DNA of 64,000 nucleotides, from positions 349,186 to 413,185 of the forward strand of contig MU278361.1 of assembly GCA_022385755.1 (NCBI GenBank). The letters are read 5' to 3'. The notes under the pieces are model-generated. The model saw nothing but the letters and a program-made list of their open reading frames with translations. It had not been told where the DNA came from and ran no database searches. Position 1 is the first letter of the stretch, and every line of letters starts with the position of its first letter. The position numbers were made by a program, and so were the translations under genes. Of this stretch, positions 31,002-63,746 are shown in pieces. Origin of the DNA: Trametopsis cervina (Eukaryota > Basidiomycota > Agaricomycetes > Polyporales > Irpicaceae).

Positions 31002-32982
31002 TCACAGATGCAATCGAACCAACATCGCCTTCTCACATACCGGGCAACGCAGGCTCTTCGCCAGCTCAGCTATGATACACCTATTTGACGGCGAGATTAG
31101 AAGACAGGTTCACGCCGCGCACAGGAAAGGGAATATGCGTAGCACATACCCGTGACAGAACAAATGCCCACAAATCGTCGTTACAGGATCCTCTGGGTCC
31201 CTCCCGCAGGACTTACAGCCCCACTTCAAAGATGATGCAGGTTCACGGGGCGCTTGCTTGCTGGACGTCGAATGAACTTCATTTGGTGCCGAAGAGTCCG
31301 CCTGTTCCTCGGGTTTTGCGCTCTCACGACTCTCTGCCACCGTCTCTTTGCGCAGTTCCTCATCAGCTATGGGTGTGGATGGGCCACGTTTTTCCTCCTC
31401 CTTCTCTGACACTGTATCCTTGTGCAGTTCCTCGTCAGGTATGTTTGTGGGTGGGTCATGTCGTGCCTCCTCCTTCCTCTCTGCCGATGTCTCTTTGCGC
31501 GGTTCCTCGTCAGGTACATCTCTGGGTGGACCATATCGTTCCTCCTTCAATGCGTCAGCGCGTTCTTTCTTTTTGAGCTTCTTTTTCTCCGTCCGGGCCG
31601 TGCGACTCAATGGGGGAGTATCGGCAGGACCTGTGTCTATTCCCGGGCGGATGACATCGTCCCCAGCGACAGGATCCGAGCGAGATTCGCTCGTCTCATG
31701 GCTGGGAGCGACATCTCTGCCCCTCGTGAACAATATTGGCGGCGACCAGAGTATGACGGCGCCAGGACCGTACCCAGGCCGATGCGAAGTGACGGGAGGT
31801 ACATGGCTCTCCGCTGATACATTCGGCGGTCTGGAAGAATTAGTATCGGGCTGATAAGCTTGTTCATCAAACCCGGCGGGGAGGCTTCCTCCACAATATT
31901 CAAGATGCTGGAATTTAGTATGCTTAGTGTGCATTGTCTGCACAGCTGTCATAATAGCACAAGAGATGGCTTACCATTCTCAGTCCTGCTGCAGATATGA
32001 AAGATTTGTCGCATTGCAAGCACGCAAGGTGCATAACAGCATAGTGTGCAGAAAGGAGATCGACTGAATCAGCCGTAAGCGAACAGTTGCCGCATTTGAA
32101 CGGTGGATGCTTGGTTTCGGTGTGCTATTTGGGAACGTGATGTGAGTGTGTGCGTAAGGCCGGATAAAGAGGGGTTGCCCGAACCTTCCGCAAATCGGCA
32201 CAGTAAATGCCACAGACGTCGCATTTCGGGTGGCAGAAACGTATGTGCTATAACCCGGGGCGTTTGCATCAGATGTGGGATAGAGACATTAGGATGCTCA
32301 CAGAACGGACCAGCAGCGCGTCGTACGCAGCTTTACCACATACCCCGCATTTCGGGTGGACATTCGTCTGCTGGTAATGCGTTTGTAGTGCGTCAGGAGA
32401 CCGATGTGTCGTGTTGCAGCGCTTGCAGGTGTATGATGCCTCTGTGGCTATGTCGGCTAAGAACGGGCGATAGGACCTGTCGTTGGGTGGAACCGAGCGT
32501 GTCTGTATTCAAAGTTGAGATCCAGTCTCACTGATGGATAGCAAAAAGAGACTGAGCGAATACAGTGCTCACCACTGGAATAGCTTGTGGTGGAGCCGTA
32601 GTATTTCTACTGCTCCTTGGATTGGATTGGGAGTGTATCGCCACAGTGTGCGCCGTTAAAGCCTCTAAATCAAGATACACCTGAAAACATAACTGGCAGG
32701 CATGGAGCTGTTTGCCATGATGCTTCAAGTAATGCTATGTGTCTTATTAGTAATCATGCCCACTCTCATGCATATGCGGAAGCTGGCAAGAGAGCATTTC
32801 TTTGCTCTCCTAGCACATAGCAGAGAGCGTACATTATTTAGGGGGCTGAATGCCGTCCACGGACGCTTGGTAGGACACAAAGGACATCCCCACGCATGGC
32901 CTTCGGCAGCATAGTGTTGCTTGCGCAGCGAATTCGAGTCGAAATACTTGAGACATTGGGGACATTGCTTCGGCTTAGTCAT
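31002..32982 (-). CDS. C2H2 zinc-finger plus C-terminal RING protein, copy A
   Basis: The start at 32980-32982 gives MTKPKQCPQCLKYFDSNSLR followed by KQHYAAEGHAWGCPLCP: a C2H2 finger of the pattern C-x2-C...H-x5-H and a following CPLC knuckle. More C-x2-C...H units follow over several short exons (LHACQLCFQ, YTCKRCNTTH, HPKCGVCGK, HPKCDVCGIY, FKCGNCSL, LACLQCDKSF). Then comes a long charged, disordered part with three 25-residue repeats (core DEELRKETVAE). The C-terminus is a C3HC4 RING: CKSCGRDPEDPVTTICGHLF, CHG, then across an intron CIIAELAKSLRCPVC, ending seven to nine residues later with MLVRLHL*. All eight zinc ligands are present. It is probably an E3 ubiquitin ligase with nucleic-acid or protein-binding fingers. 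It is the first of three tandem paralogues. Confidence 0.8.
31355..31560 (-). repeat. Three degenerate 75-bp coding repeats in copy A
   Basis: Three consecutive units encode 25-residue acidic/basic repeats built around PDEEPRKETSAERKEE, PDEELHKDTVSEKEEE and ADEELRKETVAE. The nucleotide units share the motif GTTCCTCGTCAGGTA on the plus strand. Confidence 0.75.
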
Positions 32983-33081
32983 TGCCAAGGAAAATGCGAA
33001 GCGAAAACGGTATCGAGGCTGGCAGTACAAGAAGAGACTAGCAGCAAAAGAGTGTTGGTGGGGAAACGGCACTCACCAGGG

Positions 33082-33541
33082 CAGGCTCCTTCCCAGCCGT
33101 CCTTCCGAGCTGGGGAGGCTAGGTCTCGAGGGAAATGGCGAACAGTCTCCGTAGAATACAGAATTGTAGCACCAGATAATTTAATAACAATTACATTTTC
33201 GAAACAACGTCTATATTGGGATATCCATCAATTTGTAAGCAATGCGATCATTTAATGTAACCCAATCCGGACCACCCATCAAATTTTTCAACCTTATTCC
33301 TCCCCAGCCCTATAGAGCTGGGGAGGAATAAGGTTGGGAAAATTGATGCGGTTGCCCCTTTTGGACAGATTAGATAATCATTCTGCTTTGTAATGATGGA
33401 ATTGCCGTATATGGTTGAGATTACATATTATTCTTCACGTCATCTACCGCATACTGTGTACTGTACGCCTACTGATACTCTCCGTTATTTCCCGCGAGAC
33501 ATAGCCTCCCCAGCTCGGAAGGGCGGCTGGGAAGGAGCCTG
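33082..33541. mobile_element. Non-autonomous Mutator-like (MULE) MITE, 460 bp
   Basis: Terminal inverted repeats of 55 bp at 33082-33136 and 33487-33541 match at 52 of 55 positions and begin CAGGCTCCTTCCCAGCC. They are flanked by a perfect 9-bp direct repeat, TCACCAGGG, at 33073-33081 and 33542-33550, which is a target-site duplication. The interior is a more diverged palindrome that ends in a strong central hairpin (33289-33336) whose midpoint coincides with the midpoint of the whole element. No transposase frame exists inside. A 9-bp duplication with long terminal repeats is the Mutator-like signature; hAT elements give 8 bp. It lies 100 bp upstream of the ATG of copy A. The direct repeat includes CTGGTGA, so the insertion may have entered a 5' leader splice site. 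Confidence 0.8.
33289..33336. repeat. Central hairpin of the MITE
   Basis: Perfect 20-bp arms (33289-33308 and 33317-33336, beginning CAACCTTATTCC) flank an 8-nt spacer. Imperfect pairing continues outward to about 33278 and 33347. Confidence 0.9.
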
Positions 33542-34297
33542 TCACCAGGGACCCTTTATTCGCTTCCCACGCACATTGCTGACGATACGGCGTCTGGGGA
33601 TACTCGTCAACTGCCAGCTGCAGACACGAGTGCGCCTAGACTCAAACCTAAATGGGCGGCTGGTTGATATTACGGTGTCTTGCTCATACATGGGTTCTTC
33701 GAGCAGGCCAGGTGAGAGGTAAGCGTTCAGGCCAACCTGTCTGTGAATACTGTATACAGTAAGAGACACATGACGGAACAGAGCAGGTGCAACATACCAA
33801 CTGAAAATTCACGATGAGACTCGGCAAGTCCAAGACGTGCCCCTAATGTAGTGTCTACACAGATGTCTCTGAGGATTCGGGTGAGAAAACAGGAAGTAAT
33901 TTTTCACATCAAGTCGCGATATGGGTACCCAAAGTTACTGAGTGCGTGCAGCTTGGACGCAACACGATCACATGATCTACAAAGATTTGAATCGCCGCGG
34001 CATGCGAGCTCGTGTTCTGATATGCATTTCGGTCGGTCGGGTTCTACATATCGGGGACAAATTAATGGCAGGAAAGAGTGCTAATAAGCACAGTGTGATA
34101 GGACTCTTTGAGGACAAGGGCTGACAAGGTTTTACGCTGGGAAATAAGCAGGAGGTCTGAAGCGACCAGAACCACCAAAGCAAAAGGAGGGAGGTCATAA
34201 CAAGATAACAATGGATAGCTATAGGCATGGCAGGATGTGGATTGTCCCAAGGAAAATAGCCCTAATATTAAGCCACAAGTAATACTTGGGTGCCCCA

Positions 34298-35987
34298 CTA
34301 GTCGAGGCGGAGGCGTACTAGCATCACCGTGTGACACACTGGACACTTCAAGCTCTTCGAAATTTCGGCAACAATGCAACTGTGATAAACGTGATTTAGA
34401 ATATAGTAAAGCTTCATGCAGCGAGTACTCATACCTATGACAGAACAAATGACCACACATCGTAGTTGTAGGGTCGATCGGTTCGCATGCGCACACACGA
34501 CAGACGAATCTGCTTGGGGGCGACGATTGGCTGGATCTTTCTATATCGGCTGGACCGCTGGGCAGTGGACTAGCACTACCACCCGTACGCGAAGCTGAAA
34601 AGAGATGAATACAGGTTCTATCTGGACCCAGCCATGTATCACGACGCACCTTCATCTCGAACTGGTTCACTTTCGTCTTGGGTGTTGTTTTGTGGATGTG
34701 CGTAGGTTGTTTCTACATTATTTGCAGGCCCACGAGGTGGATCGTCCTGGGTAGCTGGGGTACTGTGTGAAGTAAACTGAGAATTGTGTTCCAATGACGC
34801 AGCTGACTCTAAAAACAGCGGAGGAACCACATCTACTTGCCCACATTCGCTCCCTTGGCTCATCGTAATCGGGGTACAAGTTGTGATAGTGAGGGATAAA
34901 TGATCTATACCGGCCGGTTCGCCAACTTCTGAAGCGCTATCAAGGACGACTGAGTCAATCTCAGAACGATACGACAGTTCTGAAGCTTGCTCCCAGTCGT
35001 CCAAGGGAGGCGTCAGAGGTTCTGATGTCCCGTTGTCCATGCCGATGTCTGGAGGTGAAGGCTCGACTTCGGCTACGTCGGCTGTAGATGGCGGACCATC
35101 GTTTGGTTTGTCACTTGACAGTGCAGCCTGGAGATCCCGGTGAAAGGCATCCTGTAGATCATGTAACCGCAAAGGAGTGATAATAGTGGAGAAATCGGTC
35201 CCCTCGATGAGGCTGTCAACCTCAAGAAGCGTCACGTCCGCTGTGGCACGTGTCTCGAGAACATGTTCTGCGCGCCGGCGTAGGCGAATCAGAGCACGGG
35301 GATCATCCTTTATATCTTTGAGATGATCTCGTTTGAACATCTCGATCATGTCCTGGACGAGAAAATCGACGAAAGTGGATGGCACTGGAGGGCTACTTGC
35401 TGTAGCATTATTACCCCCGTGATGCCTAGGGAAGCGGTATAGATGTCCAAAGGAGTACGCGGGCAAACAGAAAAACTTACCTGGATGTCGCGTTCGGAGG
35501 CCTGTCTGTGTTTCCAGTTTCTGGCGCTCGTCCCAGTTCGCCAGTATCCTGTCTTGGGGGTGATGGCTCTGGTTGCTGGGACCATCGCGCAGATTGTGAG
35601 TTGCTGTCTGAAGCGGAGGTAAACGCAACTCACTGTTGGCGCATTAGCCGAAGCAGTCTGCGGGGCCAATGCTGCGATATGCGCTGCAGTACCGTTGTGG
35701 ACGGCCAGTGCCGCAGCATCGTCGAAAGCTGCGAAGCAACTGTGGCAACTATGCAACCTGCTGGTCGTGTGTTTGGTGCTGAAATGCTAGCAGGGTATAG
35801 ATATCAGTGGATAAACCGGTTGCTCGATTGTAAAACTCACCGTGTTGAGAGCGTTGAAAATTGCGAAGGGGTCCTTGTTAGGACATAAAGGGCACTTCCA
35901 CCCGTGGTTCACAGCGACCAGGTGCTTTCTGAGACTGGCCCGTGTATCAAATAACTGCTGACATTGCTCACAGTCAAATGCAGGCAT
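34298..35987 (-). CDS. C2H2 zinc-finger plus C-terminal RING protein, copy B
   Basis: It starts MPAFDCEQCQQLFDTRASLR at 35985-35987, followed by KHLVAVNHGWKCPLCPNKDP: the same finger-plus-CPLC layout as copy A. A second finger contains SCHSCFAAFDDAAALAVHNG. After an intron comes a helical, charged region (VDFLVQDMIEMFKRDHLKDI, RRAEHVLETRATADVTLLEV) and a long Ser/Thr/Pro/Asp-rich disordered region. The C-terminal RING reads FVCRVCACEPIDPTTTMCGH, LFCHR, then across an intron CIVAEISKSLKCPVC, ending MLVRLRLD* at 34298-34300. All eight ligands are intact. The RING and last residues are much closer to copies A and C than the middle is, so the middle evolves faster. Ubiquitin ligase activity is inferred from the RING only. 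Confidence 0.8.
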
Positions 35988-36331
35988 GTTCACTGGCAGA
36001 GGAATTGTACAAGAATCTGGGAGACATCCGCGTAAGGAAGCACTGTTGAAAAACTCAGTGCTGTATATAAGACGGCGCCTGGCTGTCCTCGGATTCTCAC
36101 ACGACGGACTTCTCATCAGCATGAGGGTCTCGGGATCCGGGACAGTTATGACACGTACAAATGGGACAGTGCAGACGGTACTGCGTCTGGAGGTAGGCTC
36201 ATTCACTCTAATGAGACCACATCCAGCGCAGGCCGATAAAGAGATTTGGAACATCTGAATCGCAAAATCATGACATACCAAACACGTACAAACACAGCTA
36301 CAAAGAAACTCGCATTATCCACAAGAAGCGT
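35988..36331. other. Intergenic region between copies B and C
   Basis: 344 bp: promoter of copy B and 3' flank of copy C. A TATATAA run at 36064-36070 is about 80 bp upstream of the copy B start and could act as a TATA box. Confidence 0.4.
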
Positions 36332-38837
36332 TCAGTCTACATGTAACCTAACAAGCATCACAGTACGACACACTGGACACTGCAGATCCTTAGAAATGGC
36401 TTCCACAATGCAACTGGAGCCAGAGTGTAAGGTAAGGGGGATGAAATGCGTTGAGCAACATGACATGCGTACCTGCGACAAAACAGATGGCCACACATCG
36501 TGACCGTAGGTTCCGTTGGAATATCAGTGCACTTCCGGCACCGGAACCGAGAGGCCGGCTCTGGTTTGGATTCGCCAAAGGGGCCACTTCTTGCTGTGTG
36601 AGTCCGAGCATCACTTGCGCTGCGTCCTGGTCGAGAGGGAATGGCCTTGTCCATCACGCTGGAGGCATCCGATTCCCATGTCAGGGTGGACGCTATAATG
36701 AGCCAACGTAAGCACAGGCATCGCACAACGCCAGCGAGCTCCTGAACAGCTTACCTGCCCTGGACACCTTGGATGCTTTCGTTTTCTGCTGCGCTTTGCG
36801 TGCCGATACCCCGTTTTTGCTGCGAGCCGCATTATTCAAGTTATCGGCGTCCGGTCCGCCGACTTCTGTTTCTTGTACACGCGCGAAAAACACGCTTTGT
36901 GCAGAATGAGGGGTAGAAGGCCCACTCGTGCTCTCCGATGCAGGCGACGCCCCGCGGGCTGCATCCGGAGGCTGGGCCTCGAATTCAGCAACACGCATAG
37001 CAGCATCCTTCTGCGAGTCATCCTGGGTGCGTGACATATTCCGAGCGAGGGTGAACAGCAGGCTGTACGCCGACCCAGGTGAGGCGAGCCCACTTGAACT
37101 CTCCGGGGCAGGCGAATTTCCTGTCACATGCTGCCTGAGTGCGGTGTGCAAGGATAGTCTCGAAATTGCGCGGTTCGGAGAGGGGATCCGGCTGAGGGAG
37201 TGGTATCCGGATGTCGAATTCGTGGCTGAGGAAGTAGGGGACTCTCCTGTTTCCCGGGCGTCCGATAGGTCCACAAGTACAGGACTTGGACTCTCGCTAA
37301 CAGAGGCATGCTTAGGAGTGGGAAGCAACGATCATTGTAAAACACACCTAAGTCGTGCCGGCGCTGTCTCTTGCCCGCGTGTTTGCGGGCTTGCGGAACG
37401 AGTTGACGATTCGATAGGAGTTGGCGCGCGGACGTCCGTCCATGCTTCAGACAGCGCCACGGGATCCTCTGTGCCAGCAGAGCTAGAGTGTGTGGTTGGT
37501 ATGGCAGGCGCGGAGACTGTGCGAAGAAGTGTAGAGATCGGTGGAGGACCTGCCGTCTGCGATATATCAGCATAAGCAGGACACCAATATGTAGCAAGGA
37601 CAACTGACGATTTCCTCAGACACGTCAGTGAACAACTCCTCGTCTGACTTATAGGCGACCGACGGGACAGTGTCCGGACGGGGGTCAATCCGCTCAGGGA
37701 TTGGCGGGAAGACCTTTTCTTTGCCGGCCGGCGATTTAGATACTGAGGTCGGTACGAAACCAACCAGGGACAATAAGTCACTTGATGGGTGATACACAGC
37801 AGTGTGCTACGTTGACAGTTAGTAGAGGGTGAAGACAGTACCGTGTGACTGCACCTCTGCAAGGTTCTCCGCTGTCTCAAATGTCCGGTGACACACACCG
37901 CAGGAACGGGGGGAGCTTCCGCTCAACTGCTTACCAGCGGGGTTTACGTCTGGCGCAATTTTGGTAGAGTGGCCTGAAACTAGGTGCTGTGAAGGCAAAA
38001 CGTTGAGTACAAAGGCTCTCTCATCCTAGAAATGGCATACTCGCCTGATTGTACAACATCGTATCTCTAAATCCGATTCCGCACATCTCACAGGTAGGAT
38101 GCATGACAGATTTCAAATAGTGATCCAGCAGATCTGAGGCATTTTCATATGTTGAACCACATGGGAAGCAGCAGAGTTCCGTATGTGTCGCAAACTTGTG
38201 CTATATATGCATGAGCAACGAATAATACGAGACAAACGTACAACGAGAGTATAGCTAACCTGCTGGAGTGCGCCAGTGCTAAATAGCTCGGCTGGGCATG
38301 CCGAGCATCGAAAAGAGAGAGTCGGGGGTTGGGGTGGGGCGGGCGGGCTGTGCTTGGGATTTCCCAATTGATGTGTCGCCCAATCCTCTACATACACGAA
38401 TTTTCGACACTCGGCGCAGTATTTCAAGGGATGGCTAATCTTCCGATGCTATAGAGAAACAATGAGCTCTCAAAGAACTCCAGACAACACATTGGCAATA
38501 CCTCCTCGAGAACGGCATGATTCTCGAACCCTTTTGCACACTTCAGACACCTCGGGTGATGGTGCGTCGCACCTCTGCTGAAGTGCGCCTGCAGCAGCTG
38601 CTCTGTGCCGAAGTCCAACTTGCACGCCTTGCAGTAGCCCGGCTGCCCCGTTTGAACAGCTTCCAAAACCGCAGGTTGCACTGATTTGGGAGTACCAGGC
38701 GAAGACACAGTGTGCTGAGAGTTCAACAGTACGCTGGCCTTTTTCTGGTGGGTCTTGTTATCTCGGGCGTGCTGAGCATAGGCTTCTTCGTCCTTGAATT
38801 GCTTGCCGTTGCATACACGACAGGTCACCACCGCCAT
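36332..38837 (-). CDS. C2H2 zinc-finger plus C-terminal RING protein, copy C
   Basis: The start MAVVTCRVCNGKQFKDEEAY at 38835-38837 is a C2H2 finger (CRVC...HARDNKTH). It is followed by GYCKACKLDFGTEQLLQAHF, HPRCLKCAKGF, KYCAECRKFVYVEDWATHQ, FRCSACPAELF, CFPCGSTYENASDLLDHY, HPTCEMCGIGF and CGVCHRTFETAENLAE, so this copy has the most fingers. A long disordered Ser/Pro-rich region and a basic patch (KAQQKTKASKVSRAGK) come next. The RING is FRCRKCTDIPTEPTVTMCGH, LFCRR, then CIVEAISKDLQCPVC, ending TVMLVRLHVD* at 36332. Many short introns are needed and not all are resolved, so splitting into two genes cannot be excluded. The fingers (C-x2-C...H-x(3-5)-H of the matrin/U1-like spacing in places) suggest RNA or DNA binding. 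Confidence 0.75.
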
Positions 38838-63451: not shown

Positions 63452-63746
63452 NNNNNNNNNNNNNNNNNNNNNNNNNNNNNNNNNNNNNNNNNNNNNNNNN
63501 NNNNNNNNNNNNNNNNNNNNNNNNNNNNNNNNNNNNNNNNNNNNNNNNNNNNNNNNNNNNNNNNNNNNNNNNNNNNNNNNNNNNNNNNNNNNNNNNNNNN
63601 NNNNNNNNNNNNNNNNNNNNNNNNNNNNNNNNNNNNNNNNNNNNNNNNNNNNNNNNNNNNNNNNNNNNNNNNNNNNNNNNNNNNNNNNNNNNNNNNNNNN
63701 NNNNNNNNNNNNNNNNNNNNNNNNNNNNNNNNNNNNNNNNNNNNNN
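63452..63746. other. Assembly gap (295 N)
   Basis: All bases are N. It interrupts the likely N-terminus of FunK1 copy 2, so no gene call across it is reliable. Confidence 0.99.

Follow-up and report, generated by a model that had tools for sequence, protein, structure and literature searches.

A low-copy family of palindromic, probably Mutator-like transposons in Trametopsis cervina, with one member carrying a host-gene fragment

A 460-bp palindrome flanked on both sides by the same 9 bp in the genome of Trametopsis cervina raises the questions of whether it is a mobile element, to which kind of transposon it belongs and how it could have formed. It was located in a window of 64,000 nucleotides (the whole stretch of DNA analysed, C14:349186-413185 of a 29.4-Mb genome in 59 contigs), which also contained a run of 295 N bases at 63452-63746 and a carboxylesterase frame with 99% identity to a T. 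cervina protein. The features of the element are given below in window coordinates; open reading frames were taken from stop to stop, with at least 70 aa, wholly within 33082-33541.

33082..33541, plus strand: 460-bp palindromic non-autonomous transposon, CAGG...CCTG, without an open reading frame of at least 70 aa fully inside
33073..33081, no strand: left copy of the 9-bp target-site duplication TCACCAGGG, exact match to 33542-33550
33542..33550, no strand: right copy of the 9-bp target-site duplication TCACCAGGG, exact match to 33073-33081
33082..33140, plus strand: left terminal inverted repeat, outer 59 bp, 54/59 identical to the right end
33483..33541, minus strand: right terminal inverted repeat, outer 59 bp, 54/59 identical to the left end
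33289..33308, plus strand: left arm (20 bp) of the central perfect hairpin, holding part of a terminal-motif copy
33317..33336, minus strand: right arm (20 bp) of the central perfect hairpin, holding part of a terminal-motif copy

The exact 9-bp repeats, the inverted ends (52/55 over the outer 55 bp, ungapped) and the perfect 20-bp-arm hairpin at the centre, all described in the first-pass annotation of this DNA, were recovered as described. Identity between the ends was 88% over 73 bp, the arms of the hairpin were separated by an 8-nt loop, and the midpoints of hairpin and element (33312.5 and 33311.5 respectively) lay within 1 bp of each other. The description of the whole element as one palindrome held for its full length (all 460 bp matched the reverse complement of the element, at 71% identity, E=3.7e-44) but not for its uniformity: in 20-column steps, agreement between the arms was 19-20/20 for the outermost 40 columns and 19/20 for the innermost full step, falling to 11-16/20 across the nine intermediate steps. 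With arms alike at the outer ends and the centre and less so between, the element seems to be an old palindrome that has since diverged in its middle parts.

The RNA of the element was predicted to fold at -229 kcal/mol and that of the other strand at -243 kcal/mol, vs. means of -119 and -123 for shuffled sequences (50 mononucleotide shuffles each). So strong a fold follows from the palindrome itself and says nothing on expression, and the hairpin RNA, put forward earlier as a possible source of RNA silencing, is a fold prediction only. A minus-strand open reading frame began near the element, with its ATG 90 bp from the left duplication. The neighbouring gene had been annotated as a putative RING/zinc-finger gene; no Pfam match was obtained for its 286-aa and 50-aa frames (the latter cut at a guessed exon end), and a 285-aa version of the first frame gave no protein match at E<=0.001. 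A row of similar small frames flanked the element on both sides on the minus strand (window 31110-36750), with CxxC-type zinc-finger and RING-like motifs recognized by eye.

In DNA searches of the genome, for which the whole stretch and the 73-bp end served as queries, related elements were present at at least 4 loci; the repeat counts from these searches are lower bounds. A 28-nt terminal-motif pattern, allowing up to 3 mismatches, hit 9 genomic sites, all of them within the following four loci, and its reversed control hit none.

C14 (window): 460 bp, full palindrome, duplication TCACCAGGG
C8:376600-377048: 449 bp, full palindrome, duplication CCTTTACAT
C5:1324535-1325717: 1183 bp, longer member, duplication GGTCGACTA
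C3:1371343-1383021: split member, outer duplication AGAACGACC

Copies with different 9-bp duplications had been proposed as a check of the first-pass reading, and perfect, mutually different 9-bp duplications were found at 4/4 loci. The duplications also differed from locus to locus in their boundary bases (G, T, A and C as the last base; T, C, G and A as the first), showing that these are host bases and not part of the element. The seven readable long ends were identical at 48-58 of 59 bp in all pairwise comparisons; the left end of C3 was located through its duplication followed by CAGGCTC. Since further copies carry different perfect 9-bp duplications, the status of the family as a mobile element is well supported.

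The label of MITE, also given in the first-pass annotation, fits in part. The 460-bp element is short and non-coding, with inverted ends and a target duplication, but MITEs are also expected at high copy number in near-uniform copies, and two full palindromes, one longer and one split member at at least four loci do not amount to this. Four loci are very few for a MITE, and this number counts against the best explanation given below.

Aligned end to end, C14 and the reverse complement of C8 were identical at 382 of 446 ungapped columns, with 64 differences (27 transitions and 37 transversions) and 17 gap columns; an excess of transitions of the kind left by RIP-type mutation was absent among the 64 differences. 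The left arm of C14 corresponded to the right arm of C8, and the right arm of C14 to the left arm of C8. Both copies thus share the whole palindrome at different sites; the palindrome therefore predates their separation and moved as a unit. The recent insertion proposed earlier from the near-identical ends was not upheld: end-to-end similarity within a DNA transposon is unsuitable as a clock, and a difference at 64 of 446 bases speaks against a recent burst. From the perfect duplications (36/36 bases over the four loci), the age of the insertions is bounded only loosely.

The longer member, C5, had inverted ends of 261 and 243 bp (211 of 265 aligned columns identical) around a core of approximately 680 bp. 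Of this core, 299 bp matched a gene on C42 (282 identical and 17 mismatched bases, with one gap of 35 nt), and the match of the fragment to a second C42 paralogue was lower (174/239). The frame on C42 contained a BBE (berberine-type oxidase) domain just past the captured part; C5 is thus a Pack-type structure, with an oxidase gene fragment lying within the family ends. The identity of the fragment to the gene (94%) was higher than that between the C14 and C8 palindromes (86%), suggesting that the capture may be younger than the C14/C8 split, though rates may differ between sequences. Each arm of C5 contained one inner copy of the terminal motif, inverted, at its inner edge (score of 38 for the copy in the left arm; the highest score among 2000 mononucleotide shuffles was 25), and no tandem motif array of the Foldback/Tm1 type of internal repeats was seen in these arms.

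At the split member, C3, 10,754 bases read N (C3:1371732-1382485), and the family sequence still visible consisted of the outer 9-bp duplication, 7-10 bp on the left and 104 bp on the right. The readable left part was, from base 8 on, 97% identical to a separate repeat at C5:1156352, and the readable right part matched both ends of a KDZ element on C41 at 78% over 136 bp. The left repeat and the KDZ-like right part were read as nested insertions, the inner side of each lying within the N run, and an 11.7-kb autonomous element at C3 was accordingly set aside. The 8 bp that follow the KDZ-like end, TCACGTCA, were also found in the left arm of C5, which makes a nested insertion the best reading of that end.

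Single ends sharing 16 bp with the family were observed at C16:294194-294209 (1 mismatch) and C33:27684-27699 (0 mismatches), and these two shared approximately 20 bp more with each other, forming a related 35-nt end. For the C16 end, which matched itself alone when used as a genome query, the 20 kb examined yielded neither a partner end nor another copy of the 9-bp flank. For the C33 end, the 30 kb examined yielded neither; C33:37597, the best candidate partner (24/35, vs. 19-20 in three shuffles), was rejected, the matching flank being absent. The C33:27684 end lies a few hundred bp upstream of a putative P5C dehydrogenase frame. For a third site, C33:21619 (1 mismatch in 16), no partner end was found either. 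None of the three was counted as a member of the family.

To our knowledge, CAGG..CCTG termini are not a hallmark of MULEs, and some MULEs lack long terminal inverted repeats. The 9-bp duplication, the long inverted ends and the captured gene fragment taken together nevertheless make Mutator-like the best superfamily call, as in the first-pass annotation: duplications of 8-11 bp, long inverted ends and a propensity for picking up gene fragments are described for MULEs (PMC6446971), and the family showed duplications within this range at 4/4 loci together with long ends. The family is probably a non-autonomous, low-copy, cut-and-paste DNA transposon of the MULE/foldback type, a best reading drawn from structure, with no transposase linked to the family ends and no autonomous copy with these ends found.

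The transposase domain searches of the genome covered MULE, KDZ and Merlin. Between the family ends no transposase gene was found, the 10,754 N bases at C3 being unreadable. A MULE domain was present at 2 genomic loci, on C26 and C55 (1 over the curated cut-off), and the family ends were found at neither. The C26 MULE (C26:421219-425196) had inverted ends of approximately 310 bp (a 263-bp stretch at 99% and one of 48 bp at 100%, with a one-base overlap), was flanked by the 9-bp duplication CTTGGTACA and carried a minus-strand MULE-domain frame; it was rejected as the autonomous partner, terminating in ACTTGACG and not in CAGGCTCC. On C55, a scan of 9.8 kb for CAGG-type ends with fewer than 5 mismatches in 17 came back empty, and no pair of 8-10-bp duplications and inverted ends (at least 10/15) was found around the MULE-like frames there.

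Other origins were weighed against the Mutator-like reading. Palindromes can arise at breaks, and an inverted duplication of this kind with fortuitous 9-bp repeats would need no transposon at all; with the same palindrome at C8 inside another 9-bp duplication, and the same ends at C5 and C3 inside two further ones, such a local origin is hardly credible. Mobilization by a KDZ (Kyakuja-Dileera-Zisupton) transposase would have candidates in the genome (24 domain matches, some of them parts of one gene), and a KDZ-end-like sequence lies 104 bp from the family end at C3, although that sequence is best read as part of a nested insertion whose far side is hidden in the N run. CA..TG termini have been reported for Kyakuja, but with 7-bp duplications and without inverted repeats, and Zisupton duplications are of 8 bp (Kojima 2025, PMC12730594). 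The KDZ element on C41 (C41:42857-52191, 9.3 kb) also differed: its ends, CACCTGGACCTC, were identical over 200 bp or more, and its duplication, AGAATTCT, itself palindromic, was of 8 bp, vs. 9 bp at 4/4 family loci. A KDZ source is accordingly quite improbable.

Somewhat less remote, though still unlikely, is another superfamily with 8-9-bp duplications (hAT-like, Merlin or P) or an undescribed one. In its favour, no MULE transposase was tied to the family ends, and the CAGG termini resemble hAT starts. For Merlin, PF12762 (the IS1595-type transposase) gave no matches at E<=0.01 in the readable genome sequence. For hAT, the bases that an 8-bp reading would assign to the element differed at every locus, and are hence host bases; hAT duplications are usually of 8 bp (PMC12730594), and of 5-7 bp in some groups, vs. 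9 bp at all four family loci.

For a Mutator-like family, a mechanism can be proposed as follows. A transposase encoded elsewhere would bind the conserved outer 40-59 bp or so of each end, and the element would be excised by cut-and-paste, both the type of transposase and cut-and-paste itself being inferred. Insertion would take place at a 9-bp staggered cut, with fill-in yielding the 9-bp duplication. In the 460-bp form, the long inverted ends would adjoin each other with hardly any core left, and the seam would lie in the inner terminal-motif copies; in the window copy, the central hairpin contains two terminal-motif parts face to face. By the simplest history, the palindrome would have formed through loss of the core between long ends, with C5 a longer member retaining a core with host-gene DNA; alternatively, a palindrome may have gained a core. 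A more ambitious scheme, tentative and on balance doubtful, is a foldback-like, gene-capturing MULE family in which palindromes and gene-carrying elements interconvert, the geometry promoting exchange of the core and homogenization of the ends. At C8, a two-base change common to both ends (columns 23-24) and absent from the other 5 ends gives a small hint of homogenization, but columns 31 and 51, where the right end of C8 agrees with a C5 end and not with its own partner, point in the opposite direction.

No description of this family was found in the accessible parts of the literature on fungal Pack-MULEs, palindromic MITEs and T. cervina transposable elements, and a literature search for Mutator-like MITEs with target-site duplications in basidiomycetes returned no papers. 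The interest of the family lies in a fungal full-length palindrome that has moved as a unit, and in ends that can also carry a host-gene fragment, like plant Pack-MULEs. Gene capture by fungal DNA transposons was already known (PMC6710886) and the scale is small (4 loci), so the family is relevant chiefly for the annotation of mushroom transposons and for studies of how palindromic elements form and capture genes.

Among known systems, the Tm1 Mutator/Foldback family of root-knot nematodes (PMC3169594) is alike in its 9-bp duplications, low copy number, composite motif-repeat ends and both MITE-like and longer members. Tm1 ends have 1-9 consecutive units, mostly of 14 bp, and one known type of Tm1 member bears a transposase, whereas the Trametopsis family has one inner motif copy per long arm and other end sequences, and a transposase-bearing member was not found. 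Plant MULEs with multiple long inverted repeats (PMC3310237) share internal terminal-repeat sequence and a gene fragment between the ends; their extra repeats are mostly tandem, while the family described here is fungal and has one carrier (C5) among 4 loci. The fungal MULEs Hop and Mutyl (PMC6446971) were likened by description only, through the 9-10-bp duplications of Mutyl and inverted ends of 22-220 bp. The hAT element of Pseudocercospora fijiensis with a histone H3 copy (PMC6710886) is likewise a fungal DNA transposon with captured host-gene sequence, but differs in its 8-bp duplications, 20-bp inverted ends, size (approximately 9.5 kb), many copies and RIP signature. Within the same genome, the C26 MULE is alike in its 9-bp duplication and long ends and differs in its terminal sequence. 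Set beside these systems, the Trametopsis elements are a new low-copy family of a known kind: mobile, MULE-like and palindromic, with one gene-carrying member.
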